Positions 2-10,565 of a stretch of 46,351 nt of DNA are shown in pieces; position 1 is the first letter of the stretch, and each line of letters opens with the position of its first letter. Below the pieces are notes generated by a model. That model was not told the origin of the DNA and did not search any database. It was given only the letters and a program-made list of their open reading frames with translations. Source of the DNA: Candidatus Didemnitutus sp. (lineage in GTDB: Bacteria > Verrucomicrobiota > Verrucomicrobiia > Opitutales > Opitutaceae); the NCBI GenBank assembly GCA_030681265.1, contig JAUXXD010000074.1, forward strand, positions 1-46,351. The letters are read 5' to 3'. Made by a program: the position numbers and the translations under genes.

Positions 2-1261
2 CCGTTGTTCTACCTCGGCATCATTTTGGTCGCCGTCGGCACGCTCATCGGCGTGTTCAACTACTTCGCGACGCTCTACGTCGCCAAGCGCGACGGTGCC
101 TACACCGGTTCGTTGCCGCTCGTCACCTACGGAGCCACCGCCGCTGCGATCATCGCGGTCGTCACGTTGCTCCACGGCGCGATCGTCATGCTCCCGACGT
201 TTACCTACTCGATGGGTTGGACGCCGGAGCCGGATGCCGCGTGGTATCGCCTCATCTGGTGGGGCCTCGGTCACCAATCGCAACAGGTCAACGTCTGCGC
301 GATGGTCGCCATCTGGTATATGATCGGCAATCTCACGACCGGCGCTCGCCCGATCAACGAAGCGGTTTGCCGCACGGCCTTCGTGCTCTACGTGGTGTTC
401 ATCAACATCGCGTCCGCCCACCATTTGCTCGTCGACCCAGGCGTCGGCGCAACGTGGAAAATCTGGAACACGTCCTACGCGATGTATCTCGCGGTGCTCG
501 CGTCGATGGTGCACGGCTTCACCGTGCCGGCCGGCGTCGAAGTCGCCATGCGCGAAAAGGGTTACACGCGCGGCCTGTTCGGATGGGTCACCGCGTTGCC
601 ATGGAAGAATCCTGCATTCTCCGGCGCAGCGTTGTCCGTCGTCATCTTCGGTTTCATCGGTGGCATCACCGGTGTCACGCTCGGCACGCAGCAGATCAAT
701 ATCATCGCGCACAATACCATGCGCATCCCGGGTCACTTCCACGCCACCGTGGTCGGCGGCACGACACTCGCGTTCATGGCGCTCACTTACTACGTGATTC
801 CGCTGTTCTTCCAACGCGACTTCATCGGCCGTGGCTGGGCGCGCGTGCAACCGTGGCTCTTCGCTGCGGGCATCACGATGCTCTCGTTCGGCATGTCGTT
901 CGCCGGCTCGATGGGCGTCGCTCGCCGCACTTGGGACATTGACGCGCAAGGCATCTACAGTGCCGCCGCGCATCTCTGGCTCGGTCTCGTCGGCATCGGC
1001 GGCATCCTCGCCTTCACCAGCCTGCTCATCTTCGTGCTGCTCTGCGTCGGCACGCTGTTGTTCGGCAAGAAGACGGAAGGCCGCGCGATCTTCGACTGGG
1101 GCACCCCGCCACCGCTCGCCGGCGCGAAGGAAGGCTCCCTCGCCAATGATCACTACGCGACCAAGGGCACGATCATCCTCGCGATGGTTTTCCTCGCCTG
1201 CTTCGCCGTCTACTACTTCGCGAATTGGAAAGCATTGGCCGACGTCTGGCCGGTGCGCTGA
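2..1261 (+). CDS. B-family (ba3-like) heme-copper oxidase subunit I, possibly an NO reductase; 5' end outside window
   Basis: This is the C-terminal ~419 residues of a polytopic membrane protein whose reading frame is open to the left edge of the window. It follows Thermus ba3 subunit I closely: the helix with WWGLGH carries the first copper-ligand His (residue 90 counted from position 5), AHHLLVDPG carries the paired His ligands (139/140), and HNTMRIPGHFH carries the high-spin heme His (244) and low-spin heme His (246). GLFGWVTALPW is also a ba3 signature. In true oxidases the first His is followed four residues later by the Tyr cross-linked to it (GHPxVY). Here the sequence is GHQSQQ, so Gln replaces that Tyr. 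NO reductases lack the His-Tyr cofactor, so I infer O2 reduction is unlikely and NO reduction plausible. Subunit II would lie upstream of the window. The following SCO and cytochrome b genes appear to be in the same operon. Membership in the superfamily is firm; the substrate is inferred. Confidence 0.88.
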   Translation, partial: PLFYLGIILVAVGTLIGVFNYFATLYVAKRDGAYTGSLPLVTYGATAAAIIAVVTLLHGAIVMLPTFTYSMGWTPEPDAAWYRLIWWGLGHQSQQVNVCAMVAIWYMIGNLTTGARPINEAVCRTAFVLYVVFINIASAHHLLVDPGVGATWKIWNTSYAMYLAVLASMVHGFTVPAGVEVAMREKGYTRGLFGWVTALPWKNPAFSGAALSVVIFGFIGGITGVTLGTQQINIIAHNTMRIPGHFHATVVGGTTLAFMALTYYVIPLFFQRDFIGRGWARVQPWLFAAGITMLSFGMSFAGSMGVARRTWDIDAQGIYSAAAHLWLGLVGIGGILAFTSLLIFVLLCVGTLLFGKKTEGRAIFDWGTPPPLAGAKEGSLANDHYATKGTIILAMVFLACFAVYYFANWKALADVWPVR

Positions 1262-1340: not shown

Positions 1341-2342
1341 ATGCTCGTCCCTGCCCACGCTCCCGCCACGCCGCCCGACGCCGCTGAGTCCACTTCGACT
1401 CGCGCCGGCCGCTTCTTCGCCGGTCCCGGACTGCTGGTGTTTCTCGCCACGGCCATCGGGGCCTACGAGTTGTTCATTCTCTTCACCATTTTCTGGCCGC
1501 TCGACGCCGGCTGGCTCGGCGGCTTCGTCCGCGATTTTCAAGTCTGGTGCTACGGCTACGATCCGCGCACCGGCGGCATGTCGTGGAATTCCGTCATCAT
1601 GATGCTGCTCGAGCCGCTCTTCGTCGTCGGTGTCGCCAGCATCCTCTGGCGCGACTCGCTGCGCGATCTGCTGCGTCGCCAAACCTGGTCCGACTACCGC
1701 AAGACTGCGCTCGCCGGACTCGTCGTCATCGGCGGGGCCATCGCTGGACTCGTCAGCTTTGCGATGAACGAAAGCGCCGCCGCGCTAGTCCTGCCACCGT
1801 TCCCCGGCGAATCGATTCGCGTGCGCCTTCCCTTGCCTGACGTCGCGATGGTTGACCAAAAAAACACGTCGTTCCGCTTCGCCGATTTACAAGGTCAGGT
1901 CGTGCTCTTCACCGGCGTCTATTCCGCCTGCACCACCGCGTGCCCCGAGATTTTCAAAGAAATTCGCGCGGTCATGGCCGAGCTCACACCCGCGGAACGC
2001 GCCGGCGTGCGCGTCGTCGCCCTCTCGCTCAACCCCGAGTATGAAACTGCCGAGTTGATGGACCTGATGGCCGACGCGCAGGGCCTCACTTATCCGGAGT
2101 TTCGCTACGTCAACGGCGAGAAACCCGCCGAGATGCTCGACCTGTTGTCGCGCCTCCAGTTTGCCCGCAGCCGCAATCCCGAGACCGGGGTCATCGACCA
2201 TATGAATCTGATCCAGCTCGTCGACCGCGAGGGTTACATTTCCTATCGATTCACGCTGGAACCGCGCCATCGTGCGTGGCTCCGTGAGGGCCTGCGCTCC
2301 CTCCTCCGCGACAAACATGTCCCATCATCACCCGCATCCTGA
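1341..2342 (+). CDS. SCO-domain protein fused to an N-terminal multi-span membrane domain
   Basis: About 333 residues from the ATG at 1341. A GTG at 1293 in the same frame is possible but lies in low-complexity sequence. The N-terminal half has about three hydrophobic spans (roughly residues 30-55, 90-105 and 120-140). The C-terminal half is a thioredoxin-fold SCO domain with the copper-binding CxxxC (CTTAC, C197 and C201) and the conserved His in IDHMN (H287). SCO proteins deliver copper to oxidase centres or act as thiol-disulfide reductants. Ordinary SCO proteins have a single anchor, so the three-span extension is unusual. The gene begins 79 bp after the oxidase-like subunit and its last 26 bp overlap the next gene, which indicates one transcript. 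It is probably an assembly factor for the neighbouring heme-copper enzyme. Confidence 0.85.
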   Translation: MLVPAHAPATPPDAAESTSTRAGRFFAGPGLLVFLATAIGAYELFILFTIFWPLDAGWLGGFVRDFQVWCYGYDPRTGGMSWNSVIMMLLEPLFVVGVASILWRDSLRDLLRRQTWSDYRKTALAGLVVIGGAIAGLVSFAMNESAAALVLPPFPGESIRVRLPLPDVAMVDQKNTSFRFADLQGQVVLFTGVYSACTTACPEIFKEIRAVMAELTPAERAGVRVVALSLNPEYETAELMDLMADAQGLTYPEFRYVNGEKPAEMLDLLSRLQFARSRNPETGVIDHMNLIQLVDREGYISYRFTLEPRHRAWLREGLRSLLRDKHVPSSPAS

Positions 2343-4449
2343 TCCGGATTGCGAGGTGCTGGCCGATGTCCTCGGGAACGCTCCGGGGAACGGCCCCACC
2401 ATGCCTCCTCCGCTTCCGCCGACCCGACTCGGCGGCTTCCTCGCCGCTGGCGAAGGACTTTTTACGCGCGCCGATGCGTGGATCGAGCGGGCGTTGCCGC
2501 GCGACTACAATCCGCTCGCGCAACTCGGCGTCCTCGCCAACGCCGCGCTCTTGCTGGCGACGGTCTCGGGCATTCCGTTGCTCTTTTGGTATTCCGCGAG
2601 CTCTCATTCTGCGTGGAGTTCGCTGGCGGAACTCGGCCCCTACTCGCTCGGTGGCATCATCCGCAGCGTGCACCGCTATTCGTCGGACTTGGCGATGCTC
2701 CTTATTCTCGCGCACGCGGTGCGCACGTTTTTCGGGCGCAAATTCGACGGCGCCCGCTGGCTGGCGTGGGCCAGCGGCATCGCGTTGATCGCGCTCGTGT
2801 GGTTCATCGGTTGGACCGGTTACTGGCTCGTGTGGGATGTGCGCGCGCAATGGGTCGCGCTCGACTCGATGAAGGCCGTCGATGTGCTGCCGATTTTTGG
2901 CGAACCGATGCTGCGCCTCTTCGCGGCGGATCACTCCGTGCCGTCGTTGCTGTTTTTCGTCGTCTTCTTTTTGCACATGCTGCTGCCGCTCGCGATCGCC
3001 GGCGGACTCATGTTGCACCTCGCGCGACTGAGTCGGACCAAGCTGCTGCCCGACTGGCGATTCAGCACTTGGATCACTGTGGCAACTATCGTCGCCGCGC
3101 TCGTCTTGCCGGCAACCAACGCCGCGCCGGCGCAAATGGCGATCAAGCCCGAGGCGTTCACCATGGATTGGTGGTATCTGTGGCCGTTGCAAATTTCCGC
3201 CCGCTTGAGCGGCGGCGGCGTGTGGCTCGCGGCGTTGCTCACGCTCGGTGGATTGATGTCGTTGCCGTGGTGGCTCGGACGTCGACGCGAACGCGCCTCG
3301 TATCAGGCGACGGTCAACATTTCGCGCTGCTTCGCTTGCACGCAGTGTTCGCAGGATTGTCCGTTCGGCGCGATCACGATGGTCACACGCACCGACGGCA
3401 AACCGTTCCCGTCGCAGGCGCAGGTTGACCCAGACCTTTGCATCGGTTGCGGCATCTGCGTCGGCTCATGCGATACGCAAGGCATCGGTCTCGCGTGGTT
3501 CGACGCGCGCCAAGTTACCAAGGAACTACAAGACTACGTCGTCGGCGAAGTCGCCAAGGGACAACCACCCGCGCTCGCGCTCGTCTGCACGCAAATGGAT
3601 GGTGGCTGGGATTTCTTCAAGCTCGCCGTTTGGCGCGCGCGCCTGCCCGGCTACGAAGTGCGGCCCGTGCCAACCTCCGGCTGGGTGGAACCGAAGGTGA
3701 TCGAAACGCTCATCGCCAAAGGCGCACGTGCCGTGCTCATCGTCAGCTCCGTGTCCGCCGATCCCTACGTGCGCGAAGGCGATCGCTGGTTGCCGATGCG
3801 GCTCGCGGGCACCCGCGAACCGGAATTTCGCCCGAACCGCGCCGACCCGCGCAAAGTCGCGCACGTGCGCTACGACCCGACGCGCCCCGCGCAACTCACC
3901 GACGCGGCGGCGTTGTTGCTCAAACAAGAGCGCGCACCGACCGCCGACCGTCCGTCGCGCCTCACCGGCTGGATTGTCGGCAGCGCGCTCACCGCTGCGT
4001 GTTTCGCGCTGTTACTTTGGGTGAGCAATGCGCCGTTCCAACACCCGACCGCGGCGCAACCGGAACTCGTGCTCACGTTCCGCGCCTATGGCGATTGGCT
4101 CGACCAAACCAAAGTCACCGCCGCGGCGCAGGAAAATCGCCCCGCCCACATGCGCGCCGCCTCGATTCAGGTTAACCGCACGCGCGCACCGATCGTGATC
4201 CGCATCGAGTCCGACGGCGTCACTCACGAACACGTGATACAGCCGAAAGGATTCAAATCCGACGGAGCGTCCATCGGCGAGATTCGCGTGCCACTGACGC
4301 CGGGTGCGCACCACGTCTCGCTCAGTGTCGCCACGAATCCCGACCCCGATGCCCCGCGCCAAACGTGGCAGGGCGAAGTCATCGCCGAGCGCGGTCGCCT
4401 CCTCGTTTTCGCCTTCGACGGCGGCAACGGCTTCGTGCGCGAACCCTAA
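2317..4449 (+). CDS. Cytochrome b / double [4Fe-4S] ferredoxin / MvhD-like fusion membrane protein
   Basis: About 710 residues from the ATG at 2317, which overlaps the SCO gene by 26 bp. Residues ~65-260 resemble the N-terminal half of cytochrome b of bc1/b6f complexes, with bis-His pairs H119/H133 and H206/H220, each spaced H-x13-H as required for two b hemes. A further span lies near 300-320. Residues 338-385 contain two classical [4Fe-4S] sets: C338/341/344/348 and C375/378/381/385. Residues ~415-480 resemble the hydrogenase delta-subunit domain of MvhD, but only one Cys (C424) remains, so the domain's usual [2Fe-2S] cluster is probably lost. A last span (~551-570) leads to a ~140-residue C-terminal domain I do not recognise. 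The architecture suggests electron transfer between quinol and soluble carriers feeding the upstream heme-copper enzyme. That role is inferred; the domains are clear. Confidence 0.85.
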   Translation: MSHHHPHPDPDCEVLADVLGNAPGNGPTMPPPLPPTRLGGFLAAGEGLFTRADAWIERALPRDYNPLAQLGVLANAALLLATVSGIPLLFWYSASSHSAWSSLAELGPYSLGGIIRSVHRYSSDLAMLLILAHAVRTFFGRKFDGARWLAWASGIALIALVWFIGWTGYWLVWDVRAQWVALDSMKAVDVLPIFGEPMLRLFAADHSVPSLLFFVVFFLHMLLPLAIAGGLMLHLARLSRTKLLPDWRFSTWITVATIVAALVLPATNAAPAQMAIKPEAFTMDWWYLWPLQISARLSGGGVWLAALLTLGGLMSLPWWLGRRRERASYQATVNISRCFACTQCSQDCPFGAITMVTRTDGKPFPSQAQVDPDLCIGCGICVGSCDTQGIGLAWFDARQVTKELQDYVVGEVAKGQPPALALVCTQMDGGWDFFKLAVWRARLPGYEVRPVPTSGWVEPKVIETLIAKGARAVLIVSSVSADPYVREGDRWLPMRLAGTREPEFRPNRADPRKVAHVRYDPTRPAQLTDAAALLLKQERAPTADRPSRLTGWIVGSALTAACFALLLWVSNAPFQHPTAAQPELVLTFRAYGDWLDQTKVTAAAQENRPAHMRAASIQVNRTRAPIVIRIESDGVTHEHVIQPKGFKSDGASIGEIRVPLTPGAHHVSLSVATNPDPDAPRQTWQGEVIAERGRLLVFAFDGGNGFVREP

Positions 4450-4474: not shown

Positions 4475-4488
4475 ATGACATGCATCAA
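4475..4488 (+). promoter_or_regulatory. FNR/DNR-type binding site
   Basis: The 14-mer ATGACATGCATCAA matches the FNR-family consensus TTGAT-N4-ATCAA, with a perfect right half and TGA conserved in the left half. C at the fifth position is also seen in DNR/NNR sites. Its centre (4481.5) lies exactly 41.5 bp upstream of the start point predicted from the -10 element at 4511-4516, the class II activator geometry. The Crp/Fnr regulator at 5790-6509 carries the E-SR recognition residues expected to read this sequence. Confidence 0.6.
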
Positions 4489-4539: not shown

Positions 4540-4776
4540 ATGAAACCGAAAAAATTCCAGACGCTCGACGTGCGGCCACTCCTCGCCGCCGGCACCGAAC
4601 CACTCGTCGCCATCCGCCAACGCGTCGATGCGCTCACCGCCGGCCAAGGCCTCACCGTCCTCGCCCCGTTCCTCCCGTCCCCGCTGATCGAATTGCTCCG
4701 CAGCGAAGGTTTCGAATCCGACATGGAACACCGGCAGGACGGCGCATGGTCCGTTAGTTTCTGGAAAAGCCCATAA
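4540..4776 (+). CDS. DUF2249 domain protein
   Basis: 78 residues from the ATG at 4540. The sequence has the DUF2249 outline: a short strand with LDVRPLLAAGTEPL near the start, an amphipathic helix (AIRQRVDALTAGQGL), a second strand (LTVLAPFLPSPLIELL) and a C-terminal strand-rich tail ending in WSVSFWKSP. DUF2249 proteins are small TusA-like folds often found next to nitrite, NO and heme-copper reductase genes; their biochemical role is not settled. The gene sits directly downstream of the FNR/DNR-type promoter and 40 bp ahead of the cupin gene, so it is probably the first gene of an anaerobiosis- or NO-induced pair. Confidence 0.8.
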   Translation: MKPKKFQTLDVRPLLAAGTEPLVAIRQRVDALTAGQGLTVLAPFLPSPLIELLRSEGFESDMEHRQDGAWSVSFWKSP

Positions 4777-4816: not shown

Positions 4817-5164
4817 ATGAAATCCTCCGCTCTTCTCGCCACCGACGCCTCCGCTGTCTGCTCGTTGCAGATTCCCGTCGAAAAAGTTGCTCACGGCATC
4901 GTGAGCCAAGCGTTGCTCACCGCGCCGGGACTGCGCGCCACGCTTTTCAAGTTCGCCGCCGGCCAGGAACTTTCCGAACACACCAGCAGTGCGCGCGTGC
5001 TCGTGCAGGTGATAGCCGGCCGCTGTGAATTCAGCGTGGACGGAAAACCGAATGTCCTCGTGCCCGGACAACTTTTTCACCTGCCGCCCAAGGCTCCGCA
5101 CGCGGTGAAGGCCCTCGATGAGATGACGCTGCTCGTTATCCAAGCGATGCCGCCGAAGGACTGA
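4817..5164 (+). CDS. Small single-domain cupin
   Basis: 115 residues from the ATG at 4817. The central part is a typical cupin: motif 1 region with LSEHTSSARVLVQVIAG and motif 2 PGQLFHLPPKAPHAV. Scattered His residues (in SEHTS, LFHLPP and APHAV) could bind a metal, though the motif 1 His pair is incomplete. No signal peptide is present, so it is cytoplasmic. It follows the DUF2249 gene by 40 bp and is convergent with the small helical protein downstream. Similar cupins accompany denitrification and oxidase clusters, but the substrate cannot be told from sequence. It may be a sensor or binding protein rather than an enzyme. Confidence 0.8.
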   Translation: MKSSALLATDASAVCSLQIPVEKVAHGIVSQALLTAPGLRATLFKFAAGQELSEHTSSARVLVQVIAGRCEFSVDGKPNVLVPGQLFHLPPKAPHAVKALDEMTLLVIQAMPPKD

Positions 5165-5182: not shown

Positions 5183-5602
5183 TCACTTCGCGGCTTCATC
5201 CCGCTGTTGGCAGACCGCGGAGAGCGCGCCGATCTCCCGCCGCGCGACGGCGCTGACCACGTGTTTCAACTTCGCGAATGCCTGGTCGCGCGCCACGGGA
5301 TTGAGCTTCGGCATTTCCGCTTGCACCAAAATGAGCGCTTCCAACATCGCCTGTTCCCCCGCGCGATAGTAAGCCAACAATGGATTGCGGCCGCAGACAC
5401 ATTCCACTTCCGGTTCGAGTTTTTCCGGAAGCGGTTGACGCAGTAACGTGAAGAATTCGCTCAACGACTCATTGATACCGAAAACCAACGTGTCCGGATT
5501 CGCCAGCGGGGTAGCGACGGCTTCGACGCGCAGAAACGCCTCCCAACGGGCGCGAATCTGGGCACGGCGGTCGCGCAACGCACGGATTACTTCCTCTTGC
5601 AT
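5183..5602 (-). CDS. Small all-helical protein with CxC motif, unknown function
   Basis: 139 residues, no signal peptide, mostly amphipathic helix. The N-terminal ~55 residues (RRAQIRARWEAFL, then TPLANPDTLV) faintly recall the N-terminal four-helix sensor domain of RsbR-like proteins. The middle has a CxC (ECVCGRNPLLAYYRAGEQ), and a final Cys lies near the C terminus (AVCQQ). Three Cys in a short cytoplasmic protein beside a putative NO-reductase cluster suggest metal, heme or redox sensing, but this is speculation. It is convergent with the cupin gene (18 bp apart) and divergent from the Crp/Fnr regulator, sharing a 187-bp intergenic region. I do not recognise a named family. Confidence 0.7.
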   Translation of the reverse strand: MQEEVIRALRDRRAQIRARWEAFLRVEAVATPLANPDTLVFGINESLSEFFTLLRQPLPEKLEPEVECVCGRNPLLAYYRAGEQAMLEALILVQAEMPKLNPVARDQAFAKLKHVVSAVARREIGALSAVCQQRDEAAK

Positions 5603-5789: not shown

Positions 5790-6509
5790 ATGTCCTCCAC
5801 CCCCCGCACCAACGACCTCAAGATCATCGGCTTGATCGGAACGTTGCGCAGCAATCAGCAGTTCAGCGGCTTGCCGCTCGAGGACCTCACCACGATTGCC
5901 AATTTCTCGACGCTCGTCTCGCTGGCGAAAGACGACTACCTGTTCCACGAGGGCGAAGCGTCACGCGGCTGCTACCTCGTGCAAAGCGGCGCGATCAACG
6001 TCCATCGCGTCAACGCCGCGGGCAAGGAACAGGTCATCCACGTTTTCCGCGCACCGGAGTCGCTCGCCGAAGCTTCGCTTGCGTCGCCCACCGGCTATCC
6101 CGCCAACGCCCGCGCGGTCGAACCCAGCACCGTGTTGCTTATTCCCAAAGTGCCGTTGCTCGAACTCATCGGTCGCCGGCCCGACCTCGCGTTGCGCATG
6201 CTCGGTGCGATGAGCGCCCACTTGCGCGTGCTCGTCGGCATGCTCGACGACCTGACACTGAAAGACGTCGAGACGCGCATGCTCAACTGGTTGGTCAAAA
6301 ATGGCCGCAGTGCCAACGATGGCGTCATCCAGCTCCCCGGCACCAAACGCGTGCTTGCGGCCGAACTCGGCACCAGCAGTGAAACCCTTTCCCGCACCCT
6401 CGCCCGCTTCCGCGACCTCAAACTCATCGCCGTGAAGGGTAAAATCATCACCGTGCGCGACAGCGCCAAACTGGCCGCGATGCTCCGCCGCAACTTGGGC
6501 GAAGACTGA
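5790..6509 (+). CDS. Crp/Fnr-family transcriptional regulator (DNR/NnrR-like)
   Basis: 239 residues from the ATG at 5790; the reading frame is open further upstream but that part looks non-coding. Residues ~25-130 form the cyclic-nucleotide-binding-like beta roll, ~135-165 the dimer helix, and ~170-225 the winged helix-turn-helix. The recognition helix SSETLSRTLARF contains E198, S201 and R202, the E-SR triad by which FNR-family proteins read TTGAT half sites. There is only one Cys (C61), so the FNR iron-sulfur cluster is absent. That fits the DNR/NnrR type, which senses NO through heme. A matching site lies upstream of the DUF2249-cupin pair at 4475. It is probably the local regulator of the NO/respiratory module. 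The ligand is inferred. Confidence 0.88.
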   Translation: MSSTPRTNDLKIIGLIGTLRSNQQFSGLPLEDLTTIANFSTLVSLAKDDYLFHEGEASRGCYLVQSGAINVHRVNAAGKEQVIHVFRAPESLAEASLASPTGYPANARAVEPSTVLLIPKVPLLELIGRRPDLALRMLGAMSAHLRVLVGMLDDLTLKDVETRMLNWLVKNGRSANDGVIQLPGTKRVLAAELGTSSETLSRTLARFRDLKLIAVKGKIITVRDSAKLAAMLRRNLGED

Positions 6510-8081: not shown

Positions 8082-10565
8082 CTACGTCAACTCGCATGCC
8101 CCCCCGGCACAGGCGGCGACTTCCTTGAGCGCGGTCTCGTCCGAGTGCTCCGCGAGTTCCGTGTAGTTTACCGGCTGGTATTTCAGCCGGTTCCACTTCG
8201 CGAAATCATCTTCCGAGCCGACCGATTCGCGCGGTGCCTGCGCGTAACGTTTGTCGCCGGAGTAGCCGAGCAGCGCCACGCCGGTAAAGTGTTCGCGGTG
8301 TTCCCAGATGAACGCCGCTACTTCGTCCCACTCCTCCGGTTTCACGGTGCAGGTGTTGGAGACATTGTGGTGGAGTTGCGGCGAGCGCGATTCCTCGGCC
8401 TCACCGTTCAACACCCAGTGTTGCTGCACCAATTGGACAAAGTGCAGAAATTGCACGGCGTTGATCTCGTCGCGCAAGATGGCGTGCGGTGGTGCTTCCA
8501 CGGCAAACGTGATGACGTCATCCGTCGCCGGGCGATAAACAGACGGCTCCGTCATGTGTGCATTGTGCGCGTAAAAGTGCTGAAAGACCGGGTCGCGGCG
8601 ATTCGCCTGCACGCGCCGGAAGTAGTGTCGCGCGTGGTGCGGGTGAATCCCCGACGCCGCGCCGAGCAGCAATGATGCGGTGCCTTCCGGCTTTACACAG
8701 GTCACCCGCGCCGCCGGCCGCACACCGATGACCCCTGCGACGAGCCGATTCGCCGCACGGCAGAGGCGCGCCCCACGTTCGAGCACGTCGGGATTGAAGA
8801 GAATTTCCGGATTATCCATGAACCCGCACACCGAAACACCGAGCAGCGCATCACGCTCGTTGAGGTAACGCGTCACCGGCCCGAGATAGGGAATATGCGT
8901 ATAAGCGGCCTGCAACGTGCCGATCACCGCCGCTTGGATGCAGGCGACAAAGAAGTCGTCCTCCGTCTGGAGCACCGCGCCGTTGATCGTGCTCAAATTG
9001 CACATCTGCCAACCCGACAAGCGCATATCCGGCGACAATTCACCCTGGTAGCCGAGCGCCCGCAGCTTTGCGATTTCGTCCTCAGGCAACGGTCCCTCAA
9101 TCACCGGATGCAACCCGATCTCGCAGCACGGATTGCAGCCGTAGTCGGGGTGATCCGCGAAATAGAAACCCGGTTCGCCAAACTCTTTTTGCGCCGCGAA
9201 CAATCTCCGGAACACCGCATCATCCGACTCTGCGCGCGGCACGACGGCGGAGTTGTTCGACGCGGACCGCTGCGAATGCTTCTCAAACCAATTGCCCGTT
9301 TTCGCCGACATCATTTCATCATCGTCCGGCGAGAACAAACAGATCGTCGCCGATCGCCGGATACCGCCGCTCAACACCGCGCGCGCCGTGAACATGCAAA
9401 TATCGTAAACCTCGATCGGCCGCAGTTTGCGCCCCGCCGCGCCGGTGAGAATCGTCGCGACGTCGATCAGTGCCTGCTTCAACGGCAAATGTCCGGGGGC
9501 CTTGCCGCCCGCAGTGACGAGCGACGCACCACGCGGGCGAATCGCCGAGTAATTAAACTCCACCTGAAAATGCTCATAGTGGCTGCGCAGCAGCACGTGC
9601 AACGCATCCGCCCAACCTTCAATTGTATCGCTGATCGCGTAGTGCTGCACCGGCAGTTCCATTTCCTCCGCGCGCACCGGCAGCGTCGGCAGGCGATCCA
9701 CATGGTGCCGTTGCACTGAGAAGCCGCAGCCCGTGCCCGCCAAGAGCAGGAAAAAATACTCACGGAAAAACTCCAACCGATCAATGCAACTGAAAGAGCA
9801 GTTAAACAGCCGTGCGTGATTTTTGAGGATCGCATCGCCGCCAAACTGCAGCGAACGCATCGACGGCAACACGCGCTTCATCGCCACCGCCCCGAATGCA
9901 CGGTGAATCGCATCGGCGAGCGTGCCGCCGGAGAGCCACTCGTTGAGAAAGCGCGCGTCATCGGGCCGCACCGGCGAATCCGCCGCGGGTGCCGGAATGC
10001 GTTGCGTCAGCCGCGATTGAAAATGCGCCAGATGCATCGACATCACCCGGCGCGCGGCTTCCGCAAACGATTCGCGCCGCCCCAAATCACGGCGGAAACG
10101 CGCATACTTCGCCGTTGCGATGTAATCGCTCAGGCCGTTTTCCTCGTAGTGATTGAGCCGGTGCGCCGCCTTGCGCGCGCGGTAAATGATGTAACTGCGC
10201 GCGACGTCCCATTCGCCCTCCGCCGCGATCGCCTTTTCCACCGTGTCTTGAATCTCCTCAATCGTCGGGTGCTTGCCGGCCCGGTAAGTCAGCTCGAGCA
10301 TCCGCGTGACGCGCGCCGCAATCGCCTGCACGCGCGTAAAAGTTTCCGCGTCCAACCCAAACCGCGCCGCCGGATCACTGCGGTGCGGATTGGTGGTGGT
10401 GCCGCGTTTGACCTCGAAGAACGCGAGCGCGATCGCGCGCACGACTTTGGCGAGATCCCACGGCGCGGTCGTGCCGTCGCGCTTGGCGACACGGCGCTCC
10501 GCCACGGCGATGGGAGTGACGGATTGGCGGGGATTAAAGCGGGCGAGCAAAGTGGCAGCAGTCAT
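8082..10565 (-). CDS. nrdJ: Adenosylcobalamin-dependent (class II) ribonucleotide reductase
   Basis: 827 residues, a normal length for a single-chain class II enzyme. It reduces ribonucleotides to deoxyribonucleotides using a radical generated from coenzyme B12, so it works with or without oxygen. The N terminus has an ATP-cone-like segment (AVAERRVAKRDGTTAPWDLA). NCSFSCIDRLEFF carries one of the substrate-reducing Cys, NPCCE (N478-E482) is the thiyl-radical loop with C480, and KPEGTASLLLGAASG matches the phosphate-binding loop. The C terminus ends in a flexible CAGGAC Cys pair that would be re-reduced by thioredoxin. I see no intein and no second RNR subunit nearby. A 16-bp inverted repeat lies just upstream of the start. 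Confidence 0.95.
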   Translation of the reverse strand: MTAATLLARFNPRQSVTPIAVAERRVAKRDGTTAPWDLAKVVRAIALAFFEVKRGTTTNPHRSDPAARFGLDAETFTRVQAIAARVTRMLELTYRAGKHPTIEEIQDTVEKAIAAEGEWDVARSYIIYRARKAAHRLNHYEENGLSDYIATAKYARFRRDLGRRESFAEAARRVMSMHLAHFQSRLTQRIPAPAADSPVRPDDARFLNEWLSGGTLADAIHRAFGAVAMKRVLPSMRSLQFGGDAILKNHARLFNCSFSCIDRLEFFREYFFLLLAGTGCGFSVQRHHVDRLPTLPVRAEEMELPVQHYAISDTIEGWADALHVLLRSHYEHFQVEFNYSAIRPRGASLVTAGGKAPGHLPLKQALIDVATILTGAAGRKLRPIEVYDICMFTARAVLSGGIRRSATICLFSPDDDEMMSAKTGNWFEKHSQRSASNNSAVVPRAESDDAVFRRLFAAQKEFGEPGFYFADHPDYGCNPCCEIGLHPVIEGPLPEDEIAKLRALGYQGELSPDMRLSGWQMCNLSTINGAVLQTEDDFFVACIQAAVIGTLQAAYTHIPYLGPVTRYLNERDALLGVSVCGFMDNPEILFNPDVLERGARLCRAANRLVAGVIGVRPAARVTCVKPEGTASLLLGAASGIHPHHARHYFRRVQANRRDPVFQHFYAHNAHMTEPSVYRPATDDVITFAVEAPPHAILRDEINAVQFLHFVQLVQQHWVLNGEAEESRSPQLHHNVSNTCTVKPEEWDEVAAFIWEHREHFTGVALLGYSGDKRYAQAPRESVGSEDDFAKWNRLKYQPVNYTELAEHSDETALKEVAACAGGACELT

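Follow-up and report, generated by a model that had tools for sequence, protein, structure and literature searches.

A predicted eNOR-type nitric oxide reductase operon of Opitutaceae that begins with a CuB-less heme-copper oxidase paralogue

Introduction

The nitric oxide reductase eNOR was reportedly characterized from Rhodothermus marinus by Murali and colleagues in 2024. It is described as a biochemically characterized enzyme related to the B family of heme-copper oxidases (PMC11388526), and it is diagnosed by a Gln at the position of the cross-linked Tyr of oxygen reductases and by a cupredoxin subunit II encoded immediately upstream (PMC8756737). The same position holds Asn in sNOR and CuANOR and Asp in gNOR; the published eNOR alignment includes sequences from Thermus and Rhodothermus profundi, and many eNOR-like genes are said to be mislabelled as oxidases (PMC8756737). 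eNOR has been reported in one operon with the nitrite reductase NirK (PMC4653789), and a Verrucomicrobiota isolate with NirK and an eNOR homologue has been described (PMC13274419).

We analyzed a stretch of 46,351 nucleotides (the window), which is contig C84 of the 3.56-Mb, 220-contig genome of Candidatus Didemnitutus sp. (Opitutaceae). An initial annotation had proposed that the first gene of the window encodes a possible NO reductase, a suggestion that is now supported by the active-site Gln, the clade to which the protein belongs, the CuA-bearing subunit II and a context of nitrite reduction. This evidence allows the more precise name eNOR for the predicted enzyme. We also find that the operon opens with a second heme-copper oxidase homologue, here called pHCO, which lacks most of the CuB site.

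Results

The catalytic gene is split between two contigs

Positions 2–1261 (plus strand) of the window encode the C-terminal 419 codons of a B-family-like, eNOR-type subunit I, as judged by Pfam COX1 and alignment with ba3 oxidase. The N-terminal 162 codons lie on the minus strand of contig C208 (locus L007, 486–1), whose end shares 16 identical bases with the start of the window, in frame, so that five codons are common to both pieces and the joined protein has 576 residues. The gene is thus cut by the contig end and does not start at position 200 as first annotated. An uninterrupted copy (97% identity) is present in a relative, L011. The best named match of the L011 copy comes from a MAG labelled Candidatus Didemnitutus, and most of the following matches carry the labels Opitutaceae, Opitutia or Verrucomicrobia, in keeping with the phylum Verrucomicrobiota. 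The resemblance to the B family and to Thermus ba3 was borne out, as the best PDB match of the joined protein is Thermus ba3 (E 4e-44), with 26–27% identity to ba3 entries over about 460–485 residues of structural alignment. The predicted structure is of middling confidence (pLDDT 76, pTM 0.79).

A Gln replaces the cross-linked Tyr

The first CuB-ligand His is residue 248 of the joined protein (272–274, plus strand, as are all codons given here; ba3 alignment). Row alignment places the second and third CuB ligands at His297 and His298 (419–424), the high-spin heme ligand at His402 (734–736) and a low-spin heme ligand at His404 (740–742). The sixth ligand, the low-spin-heme His of helix II, is residue 86 and is encoded on C208. 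All six His ligands, as first claimed, are therefore present in the whole gene, but the window holds five of them because the contig end cuts the gene.

Subunit I reads GHQSQQVN where ba3 has GHPIVYFW, such that Gln251-Gln252 (281–286) follow the first CuB His and Gln252 occupies the position of Tyr237. Four residues after this His, where ba3 has its Tyr, subunit I has Gln, in agreement with the initial reading. Gln is found here in all 32 tabulated eNOR rows, the window among them. All 24 oxidase rows, 17 from the B family and 7 from the A family, have Tyr, as do four further plasmid genes outside the table and tree (L148–L151). These counts exclude L147, whose ligands are degenerate, and four A-family candidates read in the wrong frame (L029_ref+2956, L029_ref-1646, L036_ref-1442 and L037_ref-2221). 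All 84 subunit I genes from loci L056–L139 contain the motif GHxxQQxN. Gln251, Gln252 and Asn254 each occur in 32 of 32 eNOR rows, in place of the Val, Tyr and Trp of the 17 ba3 rows; Glu99, Tyr287, Asn313, Tyr316 and His328 are likewise invariant in the eNOR rows and seldom or never found among the ba3 rows.

Could a Tyr from another helix take the place of the missing one, a possibility raised at the outset as grounds for rejecting the NO reductase reading? In C-family oxidases the cross-linked Tyr lies in helix VII, six residues ahead of the CuB His-His pair. At this position the eNOR rows have Ile (31 rows) or Leu (1 row), so the C-family arrangement is not seen. An invariant Tyr nevertheless remains a candidate: Tyr287 (389–391), four residues further down helix VII, is present in 32 of 32 eNOR rows and is Phe or Leu in the 17 ba3 rows. 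It could in principle substitute for the lost residue.

Two divergent ligand sets were encountered on plasmids. In L136 and L137, from Thermus thermophilus plasmids, the second low-spin-heme His of the Gln-type subunit I is Lys (GHFK for GHFH, the sequence seen for L136). The dropped L147, on an Azospirillum brasilense plasmid (2501–3841), is a distant heme-copper oxidase homologue in which, by alignment, Tyr replaces both the second CuB His and the high-spin-heme His.

Subunit I belongs to a Gln-type clade separate from ba3 oxidases

A tree of 61 rows and 538 columns was built with IQ-TREE from 23 of the 32 tabulated eNOR rows, 16 of the 22 pHCO rows, 15 ba3 oxidase rows and 7 A-family rows; L049 and L050 were kept out as near-copies. 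The window gene falls within a Gln-type clade of 23 rows (bootstrap/SH-aLRT 99/94), and the 15 ba3 oxidases form a clade of their own (99/97), in a tree whose reference rows are ba3 and A-family oxidases. The A-family (7 rows) and pHCO (16 rows) clades each have support of 100/100. Grouping with canonical ba3 oxidases, which the initial annotation had named as evidence against an NO reductase, was thus not seen. Members of the Gln-type clade are labelled as Verrucomicrobiota, Myxococcota, Spirochaetota, Calditrichota, Balneolota, Rhodothermota and Bacteroidota, and the clade takes in plasmid genes of Thermus, Thermomicrobium and Defluviimonas as well as a homologue from a Rhodothermales MAG (L118) that is 64% identical to L011.

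Subunit I combines the Gln at the Tyr position, a cupredoxin subunit II encoded immediately upstream and membership of a B-family clade apart from the oxygen reductases. On the missing Tyr and the separate clade we reject a canonical ba3 oxidase. The Gln also differs from the published Asn of sNOR and CuANOR (bNOR) and the published Asp of gNOR, on which ground we reject these groups.

The operon encodes a CuA subunit and probable accessory proteins

The operon runs from the minus strand of C208 into the window in the order pHCO, a 49-residue protein, subunit II, subunit I, an SCO fusion and a cytochrome b fusion. pHCO (C208 2657–1227, minus) comes first and is followed by the 49-residue one-helix protein (about 1214–1065, minus), which was read by eye; small proteins of this one-helix type precede subunit II in 8 inspected loci, including those of Thermus, Thermomicrobium and Defluviimonas. 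Subunit II (L007 498–1049, minus) is a cupredoxin with the CuA motif CNEFCGIGHHAM. Inspection of this subunit for a CuA site, which the initial annotation had recommended, thus gave an intact motif, and the same is true of 83 of 83 subunit II genes.

Downstream of subunit I, a membrane protein fused to an SCO1/SenC domain (1341–2342, plus; PF02630, E 5.8e-10) is likely to function in copper insertion, and a fusion of cytochrome b with two 4Fe-4S clusters (2317–4449, plus; PF00033, E 4.9e-22, and Fer4 families) is likely to supply electrons. We compared gene content across 80 loci, the best 80 of 489 relatives, a set that favors close relatives because it was found with two peptides. Among these, homologues of the SCO fusion are present in 70 of the 70 loci with at least 1.5 kb of downstream sequence and homologues of the cytochrome b fusion in 60 of the 60 with at least 4 kb. 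The next three genes, all on the plus strand, are less constant in the same best 80: a DUF2249 protein (4540–4776, open frame from 4480; PF10006, E 2.5e-14) has homologues in 19 of 80 loci, a small cupin protein (4817–5164; PF07883) in 12 and a Crp/FNR-family regulator (about 5790–6509; PF00027 and PF13545) in 20. The DUF2249 gene and the regulator had been noted before; both stand, but the label "DNR-like" was a guess, as no NCBIfam regulator model reached its cut-off with the latter.

Two other genes of the window lie on the minus strand. The product of one (5183–5602) has 139 residues and no Pfam match at E 0.01; this gene is divergent from the Crp/FNR gene, and a homologue of it lies near eNOR in 9 of the best 80 loci. 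The other (8082–10565) encodes an 827-residue protein that, by eye, resembles class II ribonucleotide reductase.

pHCO is a conserved paralogue without the CuB His pair

pHCO is a heme-copper oxidase homologue that keeps the three heme-ligand His and one CuB His. Four residues are invariant in 31 of 31 aligned pHCO proteins: His80 and His226, which align with the low-spin His of helix II and the first CuB His, and His358 and His360, which align with the high-spin-heme His and the second low-spin His. None of the 22 tabulated rows or the 31 aligned proteins retains the CuB His-His pair; in 14 of the 31 a single, unconserved His comes after an invariant Pro at this site. pHCO thus has the fold and heme ligands of the heme-copper oxidase superfamily without its full set of three CuB His.

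Structure prediction gives pHCO a heme-copper oxidase fold (pLDDT 89, pTM 0.90), and the 50 structural matches listed for the model have Z 27.7–30.2 and rmsd 3.0–4.8 over 397–429 residues. In Foldseek, cbb3 chains match best (E 9e-8), closely followed by ba3 chains, so the fold by itself does not assign pHCO to the B family. A single pHCO sequence run with phmmer against PDB gave nothing at 0.001, and a profile of the 31 proteins matched 18 PDB sequences, Thermus ba3 entries, with E 1.8e-5 at best. A tblastn search of 72,556 plasmids with pHCO returned nothing at E 0.001. In a quick tree pHCO lies next to the Gln-type clade (SH-aLRT 98), a position that is unsure in its exact placement because the branch is long.

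Of the loci from the best 80 of 489 relatives, 71 extend 1.9 kb or more upstream of subunit II, and 66 of these have pHCO. The pHCO profile likewise had no match at the other five (L100, L102, L103, L111 and L115) or at the plasmid loci L136–L139. In a search of 387 genomes of the phylum, genes like pHCO (E no higher than 1e-30; 539–624 bits) were found in 8, all of them among the 9 with a Gln-type subunit I; the ninth, G127, has a subunit I that is 55% identical and no pHCO, and one extra match, of 130 bits, falls inside the subunit I gene of G128. On the four invariant His and the conserved position we reject a decaying pseudogene. Given this conservation, the predicted fold and the confinement of pHCO to genomes with a Gln-type subunit I (8 of 387), pHCO is a maintained partner of subunit I and not a relic.

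Our genome encodes a second degenerate heme-copper oxidase homologue, which is C-family (CcoN)-like (L010 on contig C143, 2354–3811, minus). It adjoins a CcoO-like cytochrome c gene and, by eye, has neither the CuB His-His pair nor the CuB His of helix VI.

The operon is linked to copper nitrite reductase

Genomic context links the eNOR operon to nitrite reduction. A gene for a NirK-cytochrome c fusion, a copper nitrite reductase (L007 8525–10057, minus), lies upstream on the strand of C208 that carries pHCO, at a distance of about 8 kb from subunit I and 5.9 kb from pHCO, with a separate cytochrome c gene before it. The upstream genes of C208 comprise YwiC, cytochrome c, the NirK-cytochrome c fusion, SCO and a porin-like gene. 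Among 57 related genomes, our own included, NirK exceeded the cut-off in 9 of the 11 that bear eNOR (all but G025 and G039) and in 6 of the 46 that do not (Fisher p 2.4e-5, with the caveat that genomes so related are not independent events). NosZ exceeded the cut-off in 0 of 11 eNOR-bearing genomes and 6 of 46 others, a difference that is not significant (p 0.58); G019, which bears eNOR, has two pieces of nosZ that score below the cut-off. NrfA-like matches are so widespread (40 of 57 genomes at E 0.001) that they are uninformative.

One Thermus thermophilus plasmid homologue (43% identity) lies beside genes annotated as nirS and Rrf2, and a second (L137) is beside multicopper oxidase, Rrf2 and DUF542 genes. 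No nitrite reductase gene is listed within 10 kb of the Thermomicrobium or 14 kb of the Defluviimonas plasmid homologue, in gene tables that are incomplete.

Other genes surround nirK. A biopterin-dependent aromatic amino acid hydroxylase gene (L007 11553–12362, minus) adjoins the cluster, and hydroxylase homologues lie near nirK in L159 and L167 as well. Between the cluster and pHCO, L007 2801–5343 (minus) encodes two proteins whose C-terminal ends resemble a PEP-CTERM sorting signal.

FNR/DNR-type palindromes precede pHCO and nirK

A palindrome, TTGACCCGCGTCAA, lies about 35 bases before pHCO (C208 2692–2705), and a second, TTGATGCGCGTCAA, about 50 bases before the cytochrome c-nirK genes (C208 10632–10645). 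We take their consensus to be that of FNR/DNR-type regulators. Allowing up to 2 mismatches, C208 has 12 such sites against 2.9 expected. In the window, a palindrome about 50 bases before the DUF2249 gene, ATGACATGCATCAA (4475–4488, plus), is weak as a single match because the window holds 18 matches with up to 2 mismatches where 9 are expected. Near the DUF2249 gene of a relative, L158, the full TTGACCTGCATCAA is found.

The region that reaches from 200 bases ahead of the pHCO open frame to 60 bases past its first Met holds the box TTGA-N6-TCAA in 42 of 65 loci; among background windows of the same width taken elsewhere in the same loci, 37 of 2442 have it. All 42 loci carry labels of Verrucomicrobiota groups. 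The 23 without the box are the Opitutae-type L061, L062 and L065 and all 20 loci that carry no Verrucomicrobiota label, two of which say "bacterium" alone. The stricter TTGAY-N4-RTCAA has 28 sites in 242 kb made up of C208, the window and 12 stretches picked around nirK or eNOR. Of the loci with a close NirK (72% identity or more, our own included), 11 of 11 have, by eye, a box at the 5′ end of nirK or of its cytochrome c gene; among the other stretches, L165 is without nirK and L169 has only a 31% multicopper protein. Because the same box precedes both, the eNOR operon and nirK are probably under a common regulator, and the Crp/FNR gene at 5790–6509 is a candidate for the protein that reads the palindromes.

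Discussion

Our analysis indicates that the product of the gene at the start of the window is very probably the catalytic subunit of a nitric oxide reductase of the eNOR type. In the mechanism that we envision, electrons would enter at CuA of the cupredoxin subunit II and pass via the low-spin heme to the heme/CuB center, where two NO would be reduced to N2O. Replacement of the cross-linked Tyr by Gln would remove the group that supplies an electron for O-O cleavage. The NirK-cytochrome c fusion, encoded nearby behind a similar regulatory box, may be the source of NO, and since no NosZ exceeded the cut-off in the eNOR-bearing genomes, N2O is the expected end product.

Might the enzyme instead reduce oxygen? 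A high-affinity B-family oxygen reductase that dispenses with the Tyr of helix VI and relies on Tyr287 or some other donor would account for the full heme and CuB ligand set, the CuA subunit II, the 26–27% identity to ba3 entries and the invariance of Tyr287. We consider it very unlikely, as the Gln-type sequences form a clade separate from the Tyr-bearing ba3 oxidases, the C-family Tyr position of helix VII is Ile or Leu in every eNOR row, the operon is linked to NirK and shares its boxes, and the genome also has an apparent cbb3-type oxidase, seen by eye in two contig pieces. Membership of another group of B-family NO reductases (sNOR, gNOR, nNOR or bNOR) is more improbable still. All of these are B-family related (PMC11388526), and sNOR, gNOR and CuANOR also have a residue other than Tyr, but in the excerpts cited that residue is Asn (sNOR, CuANOR) or Asp (gNOR; PMC8756737), compared with Gln in 32 of 32 rows here. 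A separate question is what the predicted eNOR is for. The DUF2249, cupin and Crp/FNR genes downstream, together with a hemerythrin gene downstream in the Defluviimonas homologue, would fit an enzyme that serves mainly in detoxification, which we regard as unlikely but worth considering; the linkage to NirK, with its fused cytochrome c, and the dedicated cytochrome b/Fe-S protein would point to respiratory electron flow.

The role of pHCO is harder to assign. Most likely, it is a CuB-less paralogue in the same complex as subunit I, serving as a di-heme electron-transfer subunit or a stabilizing one. It is also quite possible that pHCO is a separate heme protein that shares the operon, such as an NO sensor or a heme or copper chaperone. 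Its long branch would be consistent with such a role. So would its absence from the four plasmid homologues and, among the best 80 of 489 relatives, from 5 of the 71 loci with room for it, which implies that the enzyme can work without it. Against a separate role, pHCO is never found without eNOR in the 387 genomes, it is the first gene of the operon, and its fold is that of subunit I (pTM 0.90 and Z 27.7–30.2 among the 50 matches listed). If pHCO is indeed a subunit, one tentative model, which we consider somewhat less likely than not, is that eNOR here consists of two heme-copper oxidase folds, in which the catalytic subunit I is paired with a CuB-less paralogue acting in electron transfer or as a gate. 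The freed first CuB His might then bind a second heme to form a di-heme wire or gate. We found no description in print of a CuB-less partner of an NO reductase, in a search that mostly did not extend to subscription literature, including Murali 2024.

If true, such a two-fold eNOR would be a heme-copper respiratory enzyme with one active copy and one electron-transfer copy. More generally, the paralogue offers a test case for a heme-copper oxidase fold that is retained for a non-catalytic role. The four plasmid homologues are annotated as cbb3- or ba3-type cytochrome c oxidases, and such annotation can hide NO reduction and N2O release in Opitutaceae and other groups.

How does this locus compare with known systems? 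The predicted reaction, NO to N2O, is that of cNOR and qNOR, but these are C-family related, have an active-site Glu and use heme c or a fused subunit rather than a cupredoxin, according to the excerpts cited (PMC11388526, PMC8756737). The Thermus thermophilus ba3 oxidase is alike in fold, metal ligands and CuA subunit. It also has a small one-helix subunit, like the 49-residue protein here. Unlike subunit I, it has the cross-linked Tyr237, and ba3-type oxidases form a separate clade. Verruconatronum alginivorum eNorAB shares the Verrucomicrobiota host and the pairing of NirK with an eNOR homologue; in its description just eNorAB are listed and eNorB is termed quinol-dependent, whereas a CuA subunit is encoded here (PMC13274419). 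With the eNOR family as a whole, the locus shares the B-family relation, the Gln at the Tyr position, the cupredoxin subunit II immediately upstream and, in one published operon, the company of NirK (PMC4653789). It differs in that the operon opens with a CuB-less paralogue, which goes unmentioned in the excerpts of the eNOR literature surveyed. The catalytic gene would thus be a further member of a known family, and what stands out is its maintained CuB-less twin.
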